A stretch of 64,000 nt of DNA, from positions 1,980,540 through 2,044,539 of the forward strand of contig NZ_FPCJ01000001.1 of the NCBI RefSeq assembly GCF_900116565.1, read 5' to 3'. The notes below the pieces were generated by a model that made no database searches, was not told where the DNA came from, and saw only the letters and a list, made by a program, of their open reading frames with translations. Made by a program: the position numbers and the translations under genes. The stretch comes from Thermoflavifilum thermophilum. Lineage in GTDB: Bacteria > Bacteroidota > Bacteroidia > Chitinophagales > Chitinophagaceae. This document shows positions 42,330-58,044 of this stretch, one piece after another; the stretch's first letter is position 1; each line of letters begins with the position of its first letter.

Positions 42330-43844
42330 ATGAACGAATCAGGATCACTTAGCGTCTGGCTGATTGTGGGAAGTCAGCATCTTTACGGGCCACAGGTCAT
42401 ACAGGAAGTGGAACAACATGCCCGTGAAATGGCAGGCGGGCTTAACGCTTCAGGAAACATTTGTTTGCCCGTTTGCTTCAGGGGTGTAGCCACCACACCC
42501 GAAGACATCTTGCGGCTTTGCCTGGAAGCGAATGCCGCTCGGGATTGTGCGGGAGTTATTTGCTGGATGCATACTTTTTCTCCGGCTAAAATGTGGATAC
42601 AGGGATTAAAGGCACTGCAAAAGCCCCTGCTGCATTTTCACACACAATTCAACCGGGATATTCCCTGGAGCACGATCGACATGGATTTCATGAATCTCAA
42701 CCAAAGCGCGCATGGCGATCGGGAATTTGGTCATATCCTGGCGCGGATGGGGAAAACGCGCAAGGTAGTGGTGGGGCACTGGCAGCAGGCAGAAGCCCAG
42801 CAACAGATAGATAACTGGTGCCGGGCAGCAATGGCCTGGCATGACTGGCAGGGTGCCCGGTTTGTGCGTTTCGGGGATAACATGCGCCAGGTGGCCGTGA
42901 CCGAAGGCGATAAGGTCGAAGCAGAGTATCGGCTGGGTTTTTCGGTCAATACCCACGGAGTAGGGGATCTGATAGCTGAAATTGCTGCTGTAAAAGATAA
43001 GGAAGCGGAGGAGCTCTGTGCGCTTTATGAATCGTTGTATGAACTGCAACCAGATCTGAAAAAAGGCGGCCAGCGCAGGGCTTCGCTATTAGATGCTGCC
43101 CGCATTGAGATTGGATTGAGAAAATTTTTGCAACAGGGAGGCTACAAGGGATTTACAGATACTTTTGAAGACTTACATGGATTGAAACAGTTGCCTGGAA
43201 TAGCTGTGCAGCGGCTGATGCAGGAGGGATACGGCTTCGGTGCGGAAGGCGACTGGAAAACGGCAGCGCTGGTGCGTGCCATGAAGGTCATGGCAACCGG
43301 ACTGCCTGGTGGCAATAGTTTTATGGAAGATTATACCTATCACCTGGAACCGGGAAATGAAATGGTGCTGGGAGCTCACATGCTCGAGATTTGCCCATCC
43401 ATTACACACCGGAAACCATCTTGTGAGATTCATCCGCTGAGCATTGGGGGGAAGGACGATCCGGTCAGGCTGGTGTTTGATGCGGCTCCAGGCCCGGCAT
43501 TGAATGCATCTCTGGTAGATATGGGTAATCATTTCCGTTTGCTGGTTAATGAAGTAGAAGCCATTGAGCCGCCTCAGCCTTTGCCCAGGCTACCCGTGGC
43601 ACGGGCGGTATGGAAGCCTTATCCTGATTTCCGGACAGCTTGTGCCGCCTGGCTGATGGCTGGCGGAGCCCATCATACCTGTTTCAGCCAGAACCTGCAG
43701 ATTGACCATCTCAGGGATTTTGCGCGCATGGCAGGCATGGAATGCCTGGTCATTGACCGTCAGACCAACCTAACCCGATTTGAACAGGACCTCCGCATGA
43801 GCGAGCTTTATTATGCCTGGCAGGGAATATTCAGGAAACACTGA
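42330..43844 (+). CDS. araA: L-arabinose isomerase
   Basis: A 504-residue AraA, full length, converting L-arabinose to L-ribulose with a divalent metal. The N-terminus carries [35 protein letters not shown] and [12 protein letters not shown] (about 90-125) form the substrate region, and the metal ligands lie around E-containing stretches such as [26 protein letters not shown] with later histidines in GGAHHTCFS. It is the last gene of the ara operon, 34 bases after the glycosidase gene. No AraC, AraR or transporter gene is linked. Confidence 0.97.
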
Positions 43845-43857
43845 TCCATCTCCCCAA

Positions 43858-43890
43858 ACAAAAAGCCCCGCCTCCATGCGGAAGCGGGAC
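43858..43890 (-). terminator. strong intrinsic terminator, minus strand
   Basis: On the minus strand an 11-base-pair stem with two G-U pairs (plus coordinates 43865-43875 and 43880-43890) closes loop GCAT and is followed by TTTTTGTTT. On the plus strand the same stem lacks a good T-tract, so it is mainly a minus-strand terminator, though it may also hinder araA read-through. Confidence 0.85.
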
Positions 43891-43924
43891 TCCCTTTACC
43901 CATAAACCATTATCTGCTAATGGT
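43858..43924 (-). ncRNA. candidate small RNA with own promoter and terminator
   Basis: On the minus strand a perfect TATCTTTG box (43930-43937) is followed about six bases later by a short predicted RNA. It would contain a first hairpin ACCATTA-GCAGA-TAATGGT (43906-43924), an A/G-rich linker with GGGTAAAGGGA, then an 11-pair terminator stem (43865-43890, loop GCAT) and a T-rich tail. The transcript is about 67 bases and has no reading frame. It lies between araA and the M32 peptidase gene, both of which end here. A simple terminator for the peptidase gene is the main alternative. Confidence 0.5.
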
Positions 43925-43929
43925 ATGCA

Positions 43930-43937
43930 CAAAGATA
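43930..43937 (-). promoter_or_regulatory. promoter box of the candidate small RNA
   Basis: TATCTTTG on the minus strand, a perfect TAnnTTTG, 75 bases downstream of the M32 peptidase stop codon. A TTTT run lies 16 bases upstream. Confidence 0.45.
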
Positions 43938-44011
43938 GCCTGTATGCGTTGAGAAAATCATTAAATAAGTGTTAAAAAAACGATTTTTATTTCTGTGTGT
44001 TTTAAGGGGTT

Positions 44012-45517
44012 TCATGCATACAAACGGGTAAACTTATCCCGGGCATAGCTCGCAAAAGCTTCAACATGTAGTGGCTTCCCGGTAATCTGCTGGCAAAGCT
44101 CCTGGGCTGTGTACAGGCTTCCCTGGCTATGGATATTTTTTCTCAGCCAATCCAGCACAATAGCTGTCTGACCGCGGGAAAGAGCCTCTTCCAGATAAGG
44201 GATATCCTGTAGCAATTGTTGCCACCATTGGGCGGCAAGCAGGCTTCCCAATGTATAAGTTGGAAAATATCCCAGGCTTCCGTGGCTCCAGTGCACATCC
44301 TGAAGGATGCCATGCACATCGTCGGGCACATTTACACCCAGCATCTCGGCGTACAAGGCGTTCCAGAGTTCAGGAAGTTCTTTTACAGAAAGGTTTTCAT
44401 TAATCAGTTTCTTTTCAATTTCATAACGGATGAGGATATGCAGGTGGTAGGTGAGTTCGTCGGCCTCTGTGCGGATCAGGGAGGGTTTTACCAGGTTAAT
44501 GGCCTTGTAAAAATCTTCCAGGGTTATGTTTTGGAATGAAGCAGGAAAGCGTTTCTGTAATTCCGGGTAATGATAAGTCCAGAACGACAGGCCCCGCCCG
44601 ATACAATTTTCCCAGAGGCGGGACTGGGATTCGTGGATCACCAAAGAAGCTGCTTGTCCGGCTGGCAGTCCGTACTGGTCGGCCGGCAGTCCCTGTTCGT
44701 ACAAGGCATGTCCGCCCTCATGGATGCAACTCCAGATCATGGTTGCCGGCTCAGTTTCGTGTATCCGGGTGGTTACGCGTACATCGTGTGGACTAAAGCT
44801 GGTGGTAAACGGATGTTCGGAAAGATCCTGCCTGCCTTTCTGAAAATCAAAGCCGATGGATTGAAGCAGATAAATACCAAAATCCCACTGCTGCTGTCTA
44901 TCTGCAAACGTGTGCAGAAAAGCATCGGATGGCTGAGGTTTTTGGCGGATTTCCGACAGCAGCAATGTGAGATGCTTTTTGAGTTCGGGAAAAATTTGCT
45001 CTAAAGTTTCGGTAGTGAGTCCCCGTTCGTGTTGGTCGAGCAGGGCGTCATAAGGCTGGGCCACATAGCCCAGGATTTCGGCTTCCTGTTTTTTCAGGGC
45101 AATCATCTTTTCCAGTTCCGGTGCGAAGATGGCAAACCGGTTTTCCCTGCGGGCCTGTATCCATGCCATGAAGCAATGGTTGGCAGCCAGTGTAAGGGCT
45201 TTTACCAGGGATGGAGGGTATTTGCTGGCTTTCTGATAATTTTCGTATGTAAGCGCTACATTTTTTCTTTCCCGTTCGGGAAGGTCGGTGCGGTCGAGCA
45301 GTTTTTCCAGGAGTCGGCCAAGGGCTTTGCTGGTTTCCATGCCATGGGCCATTTCCGCCAGTGTAGCCAGTTGCTGACCGCGAAACCGGGCACCGCCAGC
45401 AGGCATGTAGGTTTCCTGATCCCACTGCAAAAGAGCCATGGTGTTTTTCACATCAGCCAGTGCCCGCATCCGGTCTGTAAAACGCTTATATAAGGCAAGG
45501 GTATCTGACTTTGGCAT
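44012..45517 (-). CDS. carboxypeptidase, M32 (Taq) family
   Basis: A 501-residue M32 metallocarboxypeptidase, the usual length. The zinc motif is HEGGH (H266, E267, H270) in IHEGGHALYEQG, with the third ligand expected in HESQSRLWENCIGRG about 25 residues later. The N-terminal MALLQWDQETYMPAGG and the GSLGYFPTYTLGS region are typical of the family, which removes C-terminal residues with broad specificity and acts in the cytoplasm. I chose the ATG at 45517 (MPKSDTLAL). The frame is open to 45577, but that would overlap the divergent NIF3 gene start. Confidence 0.94.
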   Translation of the reverse strand: MPKSDTLALYKRFTDRMRALADVKNTMALLQWDQETYMPAGGARFRGQQLATLAEMAHGMETSKALGRLLEKLLDRTDLPERERKNVALTYENYQKASKYPPSLVKALTLAANHCFMAWIQARRENRFAIFAPELEKMIALKKQEAEILGYVAQPYDALLDQHERGLTTETLEQIFPELKKHLTLLLSEIRQKPQPSDAFLHTFADRQQQWDFGIYLLQSIGFDFQKGRQDLSEHPFTTSFSPHDVRVTTRIHETEPATMIWSCIHEGGHALYEQGLPADQYGLPAGQAASLVIHESQSRLWENCIGRGLSFWTYHYPELQKRFPASFQNITLEDFYKAINLVKPSLIRTEADELTYHLHILIRYEIEKKLINENLSVKELPELWNALYAEMLGVNVPDDVHGILQDVHWSHGSLGYFPTYTLGSLLAAQWWQQLLQDIPYLEEALSRGQTAIVLDWLRKNIHSQGSLYTAQELCQQITGKPLHVEAFASYARDKFTRLYA

Positions 45518-45571
45518 GGGCGATTTAATTTTATTCACGGAAATTGCTTTCGTTTCAACAGCTTTACCGAT

Positions 45572-46666
45572 ATGCAAATAAATGAAATCATTCAGTATCT
45601 GGAAGAAATAGCCCCGCTTTCCTATCAGGAATCATACGATAATGCGGGCTTGCAGGTTGGCAATCCGGGCCAGCCATTGCAAGGCATCTTACTCACGCTC
45701 GATATTACCGAAACGGTGGTGAAAGAAGCCATTCAAAAGCATTGCAATTTGATTGTAGCCCATCACCCGATTATGTTTCGTCCTTTGAAGCGCATTACCG
45801 GTGCCACAGATGCGGAAAGGGCCATTATGCTGGCTATTCAATCAAATGTAGTATTGTATGCAATTCACACCAATCTGGATCAGGTAGCCCAGGGAGTAAA
45901 TGCCATGATTGCCGAAAGGCTGGGATTGCTTCACACGCAGGTCCTGGCACCTATGCGGGGCAAGCTGAAAAAACTGGTCACCTTCGTACCTCATGCCCAT
46001 GCAGCAGCTTTGCGGGCAGCTTTGTTTCACGCCGGAGCTGGAGTTATCGGTAAATACGATGAGTGCAGTTACAATGTGGAAGGCTTTGGCACATTCCGGG
46101 CCAGGGAAGGAGCCAATCCTTACGTAGGCACTATAGGGAAGCAGCATCAGGAGCCGGAAACAAGGGTTGAAACCATTTTCCCGGCTCATCTTGAAAAAGT
46201 AGTCACCGAAGCCTTGCTTCAACATCATCCCTACGAAGAAGTGGCTTATGATATTTATCCGCTCGACAATCTATATCCCGAAGTGGGGCCCGGCATGGTA
46301 GGGGAGTTGCCGGAGCCTGTGTCAGTGGAGGCTTTTCTTCATCTTGTGAAAGAAGCTTTGCATACTGGCTGCATCCGTTATACCCATTATACCGGTATGA
46401 TTCAACGGGTGGCTGTATGCGGAGGGGCGGGTATCTTTCTCTTGCCGGAAGCCATCAAAGCCGGAGCACAGGCTTTTGTGACAGCCGATATCAAGTATCA
46501 TGAATTTTTTCAGGCTGAAGGACGCCTCTTGCTGATGGATGTGGGCCATTACGAAAGCGAGCAGTTTACGGTTGACTTGCTCGAAAGATTAATCCGAAAA
46601 AAATTTCCTAACTTTGCGCCTCTTAAATCCGAGATCTGTACCAATCCCATAAATTATTTTTCATAA
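45572..46666 (+). CDS. NIF3-like dinuclear metal centre protein
   Basis: A 364-residue NIF3/DUF34 family protein. The N-terminal metal-binding segment has SYDNAGLQVG (21-30) and VAHHPIMF (62-69, H64 and H65), with D103 in HTNLDQ. A PII-like inserted domain occupies about 125-230. The C-terminal part has TADIKYHEFFQA and DVGHYESEQF, which supply the remaining ligands. Some members act as GTP cyclohydrolase-like or metal-storage proteins but the general role is unsettled. Translation runs straight into the next gene, whose ATG directly follows the stop codon, so the two form an operon. Confidence 0.93.
   Translation: MQINEIIQYLEEIAPLSYQESYDNAGLQVGNPGQPLQGILLTLDITETVVKEAIQKHCNLIVAHHPIMFRPLKRITGATDAERAIMLAIQSNVVLYAIHTNLDQVAQGVNAMIAERLGLLHTQVLAPMRGKLKKLVTFVPHAHAAALRAALFHAGAGVIGKYDECSYNVEGFGTFRAREGANPYVGTIGKQHQEPETRVETIFPAHLEKVVTEALLQHHPYEEVAYDIYPLDNLYPEVGPGMVGELPEPVSVEAFLHLVKEALHTGCIRYTHYTGMIQRVAVCGGAGIFLLPEAIKAGAQAFVTADIKYHEFFQAEGRLLLMDVGHYESEQFTVDLLERLIRKKFPNFAPLKSEICTNPINYFS
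46609..46616 (+). promoter_or_regulatory. internal promoter box before the zinc-ribbon gene
   Basis: TAACTTTG is a perfect TAnnTTTG within the last codons of the NIF3 gene, 50 bases before the next start. It encodes part of the NIF3 protein, so a chance match is possible, but the same string is used ahead of rpsU, ccmB and aguB. Confidence 0.35.
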
Positions 46667-56004: not shown

Positions 56005-58044
56005 ATGCGTTTTCTATGCTCTGCTATGGTGCTATGCATGATTTTTATGCATGCCTATCCCTTATTTGCCCAGCAATCAGCCGATCAAACCCTACAGTCA
56101 GTACTTGAGCAGGTATATGATCAACAGGCTTCTGCCGGAGAAAACGATGAAGCCGCTGAAGAATGGGAGGATCAACTGGAATCCTATCTGCAGCATCCGC
56201 TCGATTTAAATCAAGCAACAGCCGAGCAGCTGGCTGTATTTCCCTTCCTGAATACCTTGCAGATTCAGGCCCTGCTGAGCTATCGCAGGCTACTGGGAGC
56301 TTTCACCAGTGTATACGAATTGCAGGCTATTCCAGGATGGGATATATCCACCATCCGGCAAATTTTGCCTTTTGTACGGGTGAATGAAAACACGGGTTCA
56401 TCTTTTTCCAATGCAACCTCGCCTTCTTTTCAATGGTTAAGTCGCTATCAGCGGGTTATTCCTCGATCGTGGGGCTATATAAAAACCACGGGAAGCCGCT
56501 ACATAGGCAGCCCAGATGCATGGCTGAACAAATGGCAACTGCGCAGCACACATTTTCGTGCAGGATTGATTGCTGAAAAAGATGCAGGGGAGCCATTTTT
56601 CAGATCATTTAATTCCCAGGGCTTTGATCATATTGGTTTTTACCTGGCATATATAGGCAATACCATCCTGCGGCAAGCGGTTGTGGGAGATTATGAAATC
56701 AATATGGGGCAAGGACTTATCAACTGGCAGAGCTTCAGCCTCAATCACAGTGCCTATGCCCTTCAGATCGAAAAAAACAACATGCCGCTCAGGGTGCATA
56801 CTGGAACAGCCGAAAACGGATATTACAGAGGTATAGCCTTACAGTTGCAGGAGCATAATTGGCAGCAAACCTGTTTTGTATCCCTTATTTCTCCGGATGT
56901 ATATTGGGATAGTGCAGATGGGCATCGCATCATCACTTCATGGGATGAAACAGGGTATCACCGCACATCTACGGAAAACAGCCATCGTCACGTATTGCAG
57001 CTTTTATCAGCCGGCGCACAGATGCGCTACCGTTTTTCTTCCGGACATGTAGCTGTAAATAGTGTGTATCATCATTTGAGCATACCCATGCAAAGGCGCA
57101 ATCAAACGTATAACCAGTATGCTTTTGCCGGGGATCAACTGTATAACATCAGCCTGGATTATGCCTGGAGTGTTGCCATGCATCATTTCTTTGGTGAGGC
57201 GGCGTGGAGCTCCAATCGTCGCATAGCCTTCCTGCAGGGGTGGATGATGTCCATCAGCAAGCCTATCAGCATAGGTTCTTTGTTGCGGTATTATCCCAAA
57301 GATTATCATACCCTTTATGCCAATGGTTTCAGTGAAAGCGGAGAAACAGCAAATGAAACCGGATGGTATGCAGCCACTGAAATGCGCTGGCCGCGCCTGC
57401 AGGTATATGCTTATGCGGATTTGTTTCATTTTCCCTGGTGGAGATACCAGATCAGCGGGCCTATGACGGGCACCGACGATCTGTGCAGGATAGATTGGAA
57501 GATGTTTACCTCTGCCAGCACAACCCAACAGCTTACAACGCAGATTCGCTATCGCCGAAGAGCTAAAGACCTAAAAACGACGGAGGGTAAAAAGCCTATT
57601 CCTACAGACCTGTGGCAATATACATTGGGCTGGGCATACGAAACATCGCACTGGTGGCTTACCTTGCGAGGCTATGCCAACTGGTTTCAGCAAGCAGACA
57701 CCATTCATTCCAGAGGCCTTGCGTGCTATGCAGAAGTACGTCATCAGCCATGGCGCCGTTTTTACTGGGACAGCCGGATTGCCTGGTTTCAGGTACCTGA
57801 TTATGAAGCCCGCATTTATACTTATGAACGTACGGTAAGGTATATGTTTTCATTGCCCTACTATTATCACAAAGGATGGCGGGGTTATCTGGTTTTACAC
57901 TATGCTGCCGGTAGGCATGTACAAATGGATTTGCGTTGGACGACGACCTGGTATTCCGATCAAAATCAAATCGGATCAGGTCTTGACCGTATCGATGGTT
58001 CCCTGAAACATCAGCTTATTATTCAAATGATATGGAAAATGTAG
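56005..58044 (+). CDS. helix-hairpin-helix protein with C-terminal barrel-like domain
   Basis: A 679-residue exported protein. After a signal peptide (about 1-22, ending FAQQ) and an acidic linker, residues 66-130 hold two ComEA-like helix-hairpin-helix units: LDLNQATAEQLAVFPFLNTL and GAFTSVYELQAIPGWDISTI. From about residue 145 to the end the sequence is made of alternating aromatic beta strands, like an outer-membrane beta barrel, with a final strand LIIQMIWKM. Similar two-part proteins occur in Bacteroidota without an agreed function. HhH units usually touch DNA, so a link to surface DNA or to secretion is speculation. It lies between a terminator and the SusC/SusD pair but is separated from susC by 132 bases. 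Confidence 0.8.
   Translation: MRFLCSAMVLCMIFMHAYPLFAQQSADQTLQSVLEQVYDQQASAGENDEAAEEWEDQLESYLQHPLDLNQATAEQLAVFPFLNTLQIQALLSYRRLLGAFTSVYELQAIPGWDISTIRQILPFVRVNENTGSSFSNATSPSFQWLSRYQRVIPRSWGYIKTTGSRYIGSPDAWLNKWQLRSTHFRAGLIAEKDAGEPFFRSFNSQGFDHIGFYLAYIGNTILRQAVVGDYEINMGQGLINWQSFSLNHSAYALQIEKNNMPLRVHTGTAENGYYRGIALQLQEHNWQQTCFVSLISPDVYWDSADGHRIITSWDETGYHRTSTENSHRHVLQLLSAGAQMRYRFSSGHVAVNSVYHHLSIPMQRRNQTYNQYAFAGDQLYNISLDYAWSVAMHHFFGEAAWSSNRRIAFLQGWMMSISKPISIGSLLRYYPKDYHTLYANGFSESGETANETGWYAATEMRWPRLQVYAYADLFHFPWWRYQISGPMTGTDDLCRIDWKMFTSASTTQQLTTQIRYRRRAKDLKTTEGKKPIPTDLWQYTLGWAYETSHWWLTLRGYANWFQQADTIHSRGLACYAEVRHQPWRRFYWDSRIAWFQVPDYEARIYTYERTVRYMFSLPYYYHKGWRGYLVLHYAAGRHVQMDLRWTTTWYSDQNQIGSGLDRIDGSLKHQLIIQMIWKM

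Follow-up and report, generated by a model that had tools for sequence, protein, structure and literature searches.

The 167-base gap between araA and an M32 carboxypeptidase gene of Thermoflavifilum thermophilum very likely encodes a trans-acting small RNA (sRNA1) that has its own promoter and terminator and represses translation of mRNAs for glycan uptake and cleavage. The DNA itself displays conservation, synteny, complementarity to mRNA leaders, and the position and orientation of the complementary sites; from these we infer transcription, a duplex in the cell, and repression as its outcome.

The gap lies in a stretch of 64,000 nucleotides (the window) from a genome of 2.86 Mb in two contigs with a completeness of 100 (G000), and spans 43845-44011 between the convergent stop codons of araA, encoding L-arabinose isomerase (42330..43844, plus strand; PF02610, PF24856, PF11762), and of the M32 carboxypeptidase gene (44012..45577, minus strand; PF02074), which is the upstream neighbor on the strand of sRNA1. 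A sequence-only reading had placed a perfect -7 box, a hairpin, a linker, and a terminator in line on the minus strand at 43858-43937, within a gene-free gap of 167 bases, and both the arrangement and the gap are borne out. The -7 box, TATCTTTG (43930..43937, minus strand), which we assign to the Bacteroidota TAnnTTTG type, is followed by five bases and then by hairpin 1, ACCATTAGCAGATAATGGT (43906..43924, minus strand), in which arms ACCATTA and TAATGGT form seven pairs around a GCAGA loop. The linker GGTTTATGGGTAAAGG connects this hairpin to a GC-rich intrinsic terminator (43858..43892, minus strand) that a terminator scan and folding resolve into a 13-pair stem, a 4-nt loop, and a U-tract. 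The core seed, TGGTTTATGGGTAAAGG (43893..43909, minus strand), is antisense to TTTACCCATAAAC(C) in the target leaders described below. Judged from the -7 box, transcription is predicted to start near 43924, and the locus would encode an RNA of ~67 nt (43924-43858, minus strand). This putative combination of an own promoter with an intrinsic terminator in an intergenic gap matches the class of trans-acting sRNAs, as would the apparent complementarity of the seed to several unlinked mRNAs.

At -33, where the consensus carries TTTG, inspection finds only a weak AATG, and a consensus promoter scan of the sigma-70 type, whose range does not extend to TAnnTTTG promoters, returned nothing at the locus. 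Farther upstream, a block that is near-invariant in all five genomes of the genus, TAAAAATCGTTTTTTTAACACTTATTTAATG (43959..43989, minus strand), is a probable activator site or upstream promoter element; its conservation, together with the missing good -33 TTTG, suggests an activator. With up to three mismatches, the 20-base core of the block occurs a single time in G000, at the sRNA1 locus, and for want of a second copy in that genome we rejected the block as an operator common to several loci.

The 67-nt RNA folds at -32.3 kcal/mol, compared with -17.6 (sd 2.9) for 200 dinucleotide shuffles, none of which folds as well (z -5.2). Folded alone, the terminator reaches z -5.3 against shuffles; for hairpin 1 taken together with some of the linker, z is -2.9, and one of 200 shuffles folds as well. 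The plus strand over 43860-43930 folds more weakly (-20.6, z -3.1), and at the locus it has no U-tract after the stem. An 11-pair terminator with a U-tail had been proposed earlier: the U-tail stands, and the stem proves larger, with 13 pairs when folded alone and 16, G-U pairs included, in the 67-nt fold.

Within Thermoflavifilum, the locus is present once per genome, with the M32 gene upstream and araA downstream, in all five genomes examined (G000-G004); the M32 and araA sequences of the other four are 70-93% and 79-95% identical to those of G000. Alignment resolves the locus into three islands, namely the upstream block (core TTTTTAACACTTATTTAAT), the -7 box, and a 32-base stretch, which are followed by a terminator with a variable loop. 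The -7 box reads TATCTTTG in four of the genomes and TAACTTTG in one, and the spacing is near-constant, with 21-23 nt from the block core to the box and 4-5 nt from the box to the stretch. The stretch (43893..43924, minus strand), which comprises hairpin 1 and the linker and forms an extended antisense seed, holds 32 consecutive bases that are invariant in all five genomes (32/32 columns), and the adjoining bases vary. The doubt raised by the sequence-only reading, that the first hairpin might not be conserved, is thereby answered. Hairpin 1 shows no covariation among the five genomes, because its seven pairs never change (7/7 constant); the invariance of the seed likewise means that covariation between seed and site cannot be seen. 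The terminator, in turn, keeps its stem across the genomes while its loop varies, with 98.4% of cells paired.

Outside the genus we found no convincing homolog; the similar sequences in related genomes mentioned by the sequence-only reading were found within Thermoflavifilum only. No Rfam family matches the locus at gathering cut-offs, and cmscan with Rfam 15 gave no match at the locus or at the homologous loci tried, the presence of a FopS model in that release not being visible. Under permissive settings over 43700-44100, PyrR (21.5 bits against a 54-bit cut-off, E 0.98) and, on the other strand, the plant miRNA MIR841 (19.9 bits against 200, E 0.094) were taken as chance. A blastn search of 54 genomes from the family and order, all outside the genus, reached a best E of 0.002, and the stretches inspected by eye looked coding or chance. 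A covariance model of the locus (R1), run on 244 family genomes, scored E <1e-16 in the five genus genomes and 6e-5 at best elsewhere; its strict filters lose weak matches, and 141 genomes had something at E up to 0.5. Among 13 of the best 15 non-genus matches, which consist of a hairpin and a terminator, none carries the 12-mer seed. The best of the non-genus matches, in G006 (E 6e-5), stands directly after a stop codon and has TGGGTAAA, the longest piece that any of these matches has in common with sRNA1; it could conceivably be a remote relation and is not counted as a homolog. An 18-base pattern searched in GTDB contigs gave 11 records (two Thermoflavifilum, one Flavobacteriales MAG, one Sphingobacteriales MAG, and seven from other phyla), of which the nine outside Thermoflavifilum were attributed to chance, as no terminator follows them by eye and six of the nine fall within open frames of 300 bases or more. 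No report on small RNAs from Thermoflavifilum or Chitinophagaceae turned up in the open-licence literature, an absence that carries little weight.

When blastn matches to the linker were read in context, its reverse complement, (CC)TTTACCCATAAAC, was found to recur a few bases before ATG codons. The linker had been suggested earlier to pair with mRNA or with the ribosomal anti-SD sequence; the first suggestion gains from the position of the reverse complement, which in genes of glycan uptake and cleavage stands shortly before the start codon, and the second looks weak by inspection, with ~5 consecutive pairs to the 16S tail. The site precedes the gene for a SusC-like TonB-dependent receptor, TBDR1 (PF13715, PF07715, PF00593), in all five genomes, genes for a GH3 and a CMD-family protein (both by Pfam) in four of five each, and a 3-keto-disaccharide hydrolase gene (Pfam) in two of five; it also stands before a GH20 gene in G002 (Pfam) and before an MFS gene in G004 (a Pfam match below its cut-off). 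These counts, which refer to sites of TTTACCCATAA and more, include G004, a genome that is 89% complete. Over 12 leaders, two of which (L044 and the upstream site of L097) have no long ORF, 5-13 nt separate the end of the 13-base site from the ATG. TBDR1 adjoins the gene for an AraR-type regulator (NUDIX, NrtR_WHD, AraR_C) in a cluster with SusD, FG-GAP/UnbV proteins, GH65, and the CMD target, whose link to carbohydrate is not obvious, yet whose gene lies in this same cluster.

The sites are conserved where their surroundings are not. The TBDR1 leader retains ATTCCTTTACCCATAAA identically in five species while most of its surroundings have diverged, CTTTACCCATAAAA is kept in the CMD leader of four species where little else aligns, and ATTTACCCATAAA is kept in the GH3 leader of four species; the hydrolase leader is uninformative because G000 and G001 are nearly identical throughout. 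The leader of a second SusC-like gene, TBDR2 (G003 and G002; in G000 and G001 searched for with exact or one-mismatch motifs), reads ACCCATAAACC-N-GATCTGCACAATG. There, the predicted pairing comprises the seed with one mismatch, GCAGAU of hairpin 1 with AUCUGC, and CAUU with AAUG at the start codon, and would cover the greater part of the invariant stretch, with the hairpin loop, across the start codon. Pairing of the loop region is also predicted with TBDR1 of G003 and G004, and hardly with TBDR1 of G000. Such pairing of hairpin 1 with target leaders offers a reason for its invariant sequence. In the leader of an FG-GAP protein (G001, G003), which reads TTTTACCC-ATG-AACC, pairing with one G-U is likewise predicted over the start codon; a candidate site of this kind lies at C2:1452193 in G000.

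Duplex energies computed with a 19-nt seed place the hydrolase, TBDR1, and GH3 leaders at ranks 1-3 of 118 leaders of mechanically called ORFs in G000 (mean -11.4, sd 3.7), with the CMD leader 7th; because the loci were chosen for holding sites, this ranking serves as a consistency check only. In the same set, the leader of the gene at window positions 56005-58044 (plus strand), which ends in CATAAACCCTATG, ranks 5th with a predicted seed pairing of -19.0 kcal/mol, and the gene is a possible weaker target of sRNA1. The predicted unpaired probability is 0.37 for the GH3 site, which is largely paired, and 0.86 for the SusC-like leader site; for the seed it is only moderate, with a mean of 0.58 in sRNA1 and of 0.42 in sRNA2, the RNA to which we now turn.

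A 14-mer of the core seed, TGGTTTATGGGTAA, is common, in the sense orientation, to sRNA1, to a second candidate RNA (sRNA2), and to two susD 3'UTRs. sRNA2 lies upstream of rhaT, where ATCTGG(T)TTTATGGGTAAATGAGTTCATC and a terminator precede the gene in all five genomes, with one additional T in the seed of G003; it may be either an independent sRNA or a rhaT leader subject to attenuation. The susD 3'UTRs hold GATTGGTTTATGGGTAA, with the 12-mer beginning 14-23 nt past the stop codon and, by eye, terminator-like hairpins after it; the seed is found in the SusD-a 3'UTR of G000, G003, and G002, and in the SusD-b 3'UTR of G000, G002, and, with one mismatch, G001. Weak second matches of the R1 model fall at the SusD-b 3'UTR in G000 and G002, and sRNA2 shares the seed only. 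Orientation thus follows context, antisense before start codons and sense before terminators. Among the leaders inspected, the susC genes upstream of SusD-a and SusD-b have no exact site; the SusC gene upstream of SusD-a carries a degenerate TTTAACCAATAAAC ~15 nt before its ATG in G000 (L207), and with nothing closer than this we rejected self-targeting of the susC genes paired with SusD-a and SusD-b.

The exact 12-mer GTTTATGGGTAA occurs eight times in G000, where base composition predicts 0.40 and the reversed pattern occurs twice, and 29 times across the five genomes. Five of these copies lie in sRNA1, four in sRNA2, and five in susD 3'UTRs; ten are antisense before a start codon (four TBDR1, three GH3, two hydrolase, and one before a short frame upstream of TBDR2), one falls outside these classes, and the four in long open coding frames (L053, L095, L096, L098) were set aside as chance. 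The exact 14-mer TGGTTTATGGGTAA can be placed in 16 of 16 cases: sRNA1 (five), sRNA2 (four), susD 3'UTRs (five), and the GH3 leader (two). Allowing one mismatch in the 12-mer removes the excess over the five genomes (194 against 194 for the reversed control), and our claims therefore rest on exact or conserved sites. The target pattern TTTACCCATAA-N4-16-ATG is found 12 times in G000, 11 in G001, and five in each of G002, G003, and G004, with controls of 1, 0, 0, 0, and 0, respectively; G000 and G001 are the top two of 147 genomes, and the mean over the 144 non-genus genomes is 1.42 (maximum 6; control 2.01). With the sRNA's own complement and double ATGs taken out, distinct matches number 10, 8, 4, 4, and 3 in G000-G004, an excess that is clear in G000 and G001, while G002, G003, and G004 taken singly show no significant excess by count (Poisson 0.06-0.17). 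Named leaders account for 18 of these 29 matches (4, 4, 4, 3, and 3 in G000-G004), one of which is the short frame ahead of TBDR2. The remaining 11 (6 of 10 in G000, 4 of 8 in G001, 1 of 4 in G003, and none in G002 and G004) look coding or are not assigned; of the six in G000, three were read in context there and two through a like site in G001 only.

Taken together, these features suggest the following mechanism. sRNA1 would be transcribed from its own -7-box promoter, perhaps with an activator at the upstream block, and transcription would stop at the terminator of the locus itself. The internal seed, UGGUUUAUGGGUAAAGG, sometimes joined by the loop and 5' arm of hairpin 1, would pair with leaders ~5-14 nt ahead of the start codon, or across it in two target genes, the targets being TBDR1 beside AraR, the second SusC-like receptor, GH3, the 3-keto-disaccharide hydrolase, and other mostly carbohydrate-related proteins. 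A paired leader would block translation initiation, and glycan uptake and cleavage would be lowered; sRNA2 and the two susD 3'UTRs, with the same seed, would probably act on the targets of sRNA1. Repression of translation through pairing at the start region is the most likely mode of action by analogy: FopS RNAs of B. thetaiotaomicron are described as pairing near the start codon of SusC mRNA and stopping translation (passages of PMC11697453), and GibS as pairing with the start regions of two mRNAs and lowering them (passages of PMC7366714). The latter source also states that adenines at -3, -6, and -11 to -15 accompany better translation in this phylum, and the A-rich TAAAC end of the target sites stands at about those positions. 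Searches of G000 for Hfq (PF17209; positive in 5 of 14 control genomes) and for an RRM protein (PF00076; positive in 2 of 14, one a Bacteroides) gave no match, from which it would follow that long pairing may work without those chaperones.

Pairing does not by itself fix the sign of regulation, and GibS itself seems to activate two transcripts in the account of PMC7366714, so that sRNA1 might be real and pair with leaders and nevertheless activate or stabilize the mRNAs. We consider this unlikely, as the sites lie no more than ~25 nt upstream of the start codon or over it, where FopS and GibS repress, and as the site in the SusC-like leader is already mostly unpaired (0.86), leaving no clear inhibitory structure to open. 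That the motif is instead a DNA operator, a TTTA-N4-TAAA quasi-palindrome bound by a transcription factor near start codons, would account for its inverted TTTA/TAAA ends and for the sites near gene starts, yet its asymmetric center (CCCA/TGGG) is fixed and its orientation is set by context, copies inside an sRNA and 14-23 nt past susD stop codons before terminators would make little sense, and complementarity in the TBDR2 leader runs past the palindrome; we regard an operator as highly improbable. Slightly less credible still is that the locus is just the terminator of the M32 gene, or one common to M32 and araA, next to a -7 box that occurs by chance: a convergent gap and a strong terminator on the M32 strand are what one would expect of it, but the terminator loop varies while the preceding 32 nt, the -7 box, and the upstream block are conserved at near-constant spacing, and a terminator requires neither such islands nor complementarity to distant leaders.

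A translational repressor acting in trans thus remains our preferred account of sRNA1, and the wider role of the seed calls for more caution. We propose tentatively, and at somewhat less than even odds, that two sRNAs, beside araA and rhaT, and two susD 3'UTRs supply the seed UGGUUUAUGGGUAA to an RNA circuit for sugar choice in which expression of one uptake system silences the AraR-linked and second SusC systems post-transcriptionally. sRNA1 might also act as proposed while the motif in sRNA2 and the susD 3'UTRs serves otherwise, for example as a site for an RNase or RNA-binding protein; a sense 3'UTR element could well be a protein site, and no experiment links these RNAs. We think this rather doubtful, since four different RNAs carry one 14-mer and the simplest explanation is a partner common to them all, for which the reverse complement at start codons is the obvious candidate.

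In enterobacteria, several RNAs such as OmrA/B and RybB use a short seed to reach a common set of mRNAs, those of outer-membrane proteins; the seed in this type is located at the 5' end and acts with Hfq. The sharing of a seed among sRNA1, sRNA2, and the 3'UTRs resembles that type, whereas Hfq was not found in G000. Among Bacteroidota systems, sRNA1 would work like FopS and GibS with a different layout. As far as the passages drawn from PMC11697453 describe, FopS RNAs are like sRNA1 in their terminator hairpin, in their promoters, which are of the canonical Bacteroides kind, and in an antisense relation to the start regions of SusC-like mRNAs, the pairing of sRNA1 being a prediction; one of 14 FopS members derives from a 3'UTR, and here the seed also occurs in susD 3'UTRs. 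By the same description, however, FopS RNAs carry the seed in a single-stranded 5' end followed by the terminator, number 12-15 copies per genome in the species listed, belong to Bacteroidaceae, and have the RRM protein RbpB as partner, whereas the seed of sRNA1 is internal, behind a 7-pair 5' hairpin, a single strong full-length match is found in each of the five genomes, the genus belongs to Chitinophagaceae, and neither an RRM protein nor Hfq was detected in G000. GibS, in the passages drawn from PMC7366714, is likewise a single intergenic sRNA conserved in one genus, with an extended seed that pairs over the start regions of metabolic mRNAs, and adjoins a sugar-metabolism operon; it is nevertheless ~145 nt long with a mainly single-stranded 5' end, against ~67 nt predicted and a 5' hairpin for sRNA1, and its promoter, PM2 with -10/-30 boxes, differs by description from the -7 box and upstream block found here. 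DonS, a cis-encoded sRNA (Cao et al. 2016, as reported in PMC11697453), exemplifies RNA control of polysaccharide utilization in Bacteroides, a role like that proposed for sRNA1, but is encoded divergently beside its PUL, whereas sRNA1 lies far from its several predicted targets. Because the FopS features of seed position, copy number, and RRM partner are absent and Rfam gives no match, we do not file sRNA1 under FopS or GibS.

In the parts of the literature covered, trans-acting sRNA control of SusC-type uptake is described for Bacteroides only. If an sRNA of Chitinophagaceae reaches this target class with another layout, control of glycan uptake by RNA may be more widespread among Bacteroidota or may have originated more than once, and here it would do without detectable Hfq or RRM protein. 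Through the seed in susD 3'UTRs, one polysaccharide locus could silence a second by a concrete route, and the circuit, if true, would rank the use of sugars at the level of RNA, free of an Hfq or RRM chaperone.

Several observations were made beside these loci. Upstream of the sRNA site, the TBDR1 leader (L085 / L209) has a second island with an inverted repeat, TTGCGT-N7-ACGCAA in G000, which, beside the AraR gene, may be an AraR operator. Upstream of sRNA2 (L219/L222 and orthologs), a repeat like AGCAGGACACCACAGGATAG is present in all five genomes, as a variant in G002; similar repeats occur at C2:2404574-2404681 and 2427712 in G000, one of them ~7 kb from sRNA2, and at C1:1974105 in G001, and they are perhaps operators of a rhamnose regulon. 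TBDR2 is preceded by tandem target sites: a second site, ACTCCTTTACCCA-TAAAC, stands ~290 nt upstream before a short open frame (L097 in G002, L245 in G003), with one inserted base in the upstream copy of G003. Read from the conserved ATG, TBDR2 of G002 (L097) is interrupted early, by a stop codon within the signal-peptide region; translation may begin at the following ATG, or the gene or the MAG may be defective. At C1:2257391 of G003 (L044, L092), an exact site, CCCTTTACCCATAAAC, lies 5 nt before an ATG that opens no long frame. Finally, at C2:1269730 of G000 (L203) and C1:252704 of G001 (L177), an TTTACCCATAA site follows an apparent tRNA 3' end and precedes, in both genomes, a 60-aa frame resembling a membrane protein.
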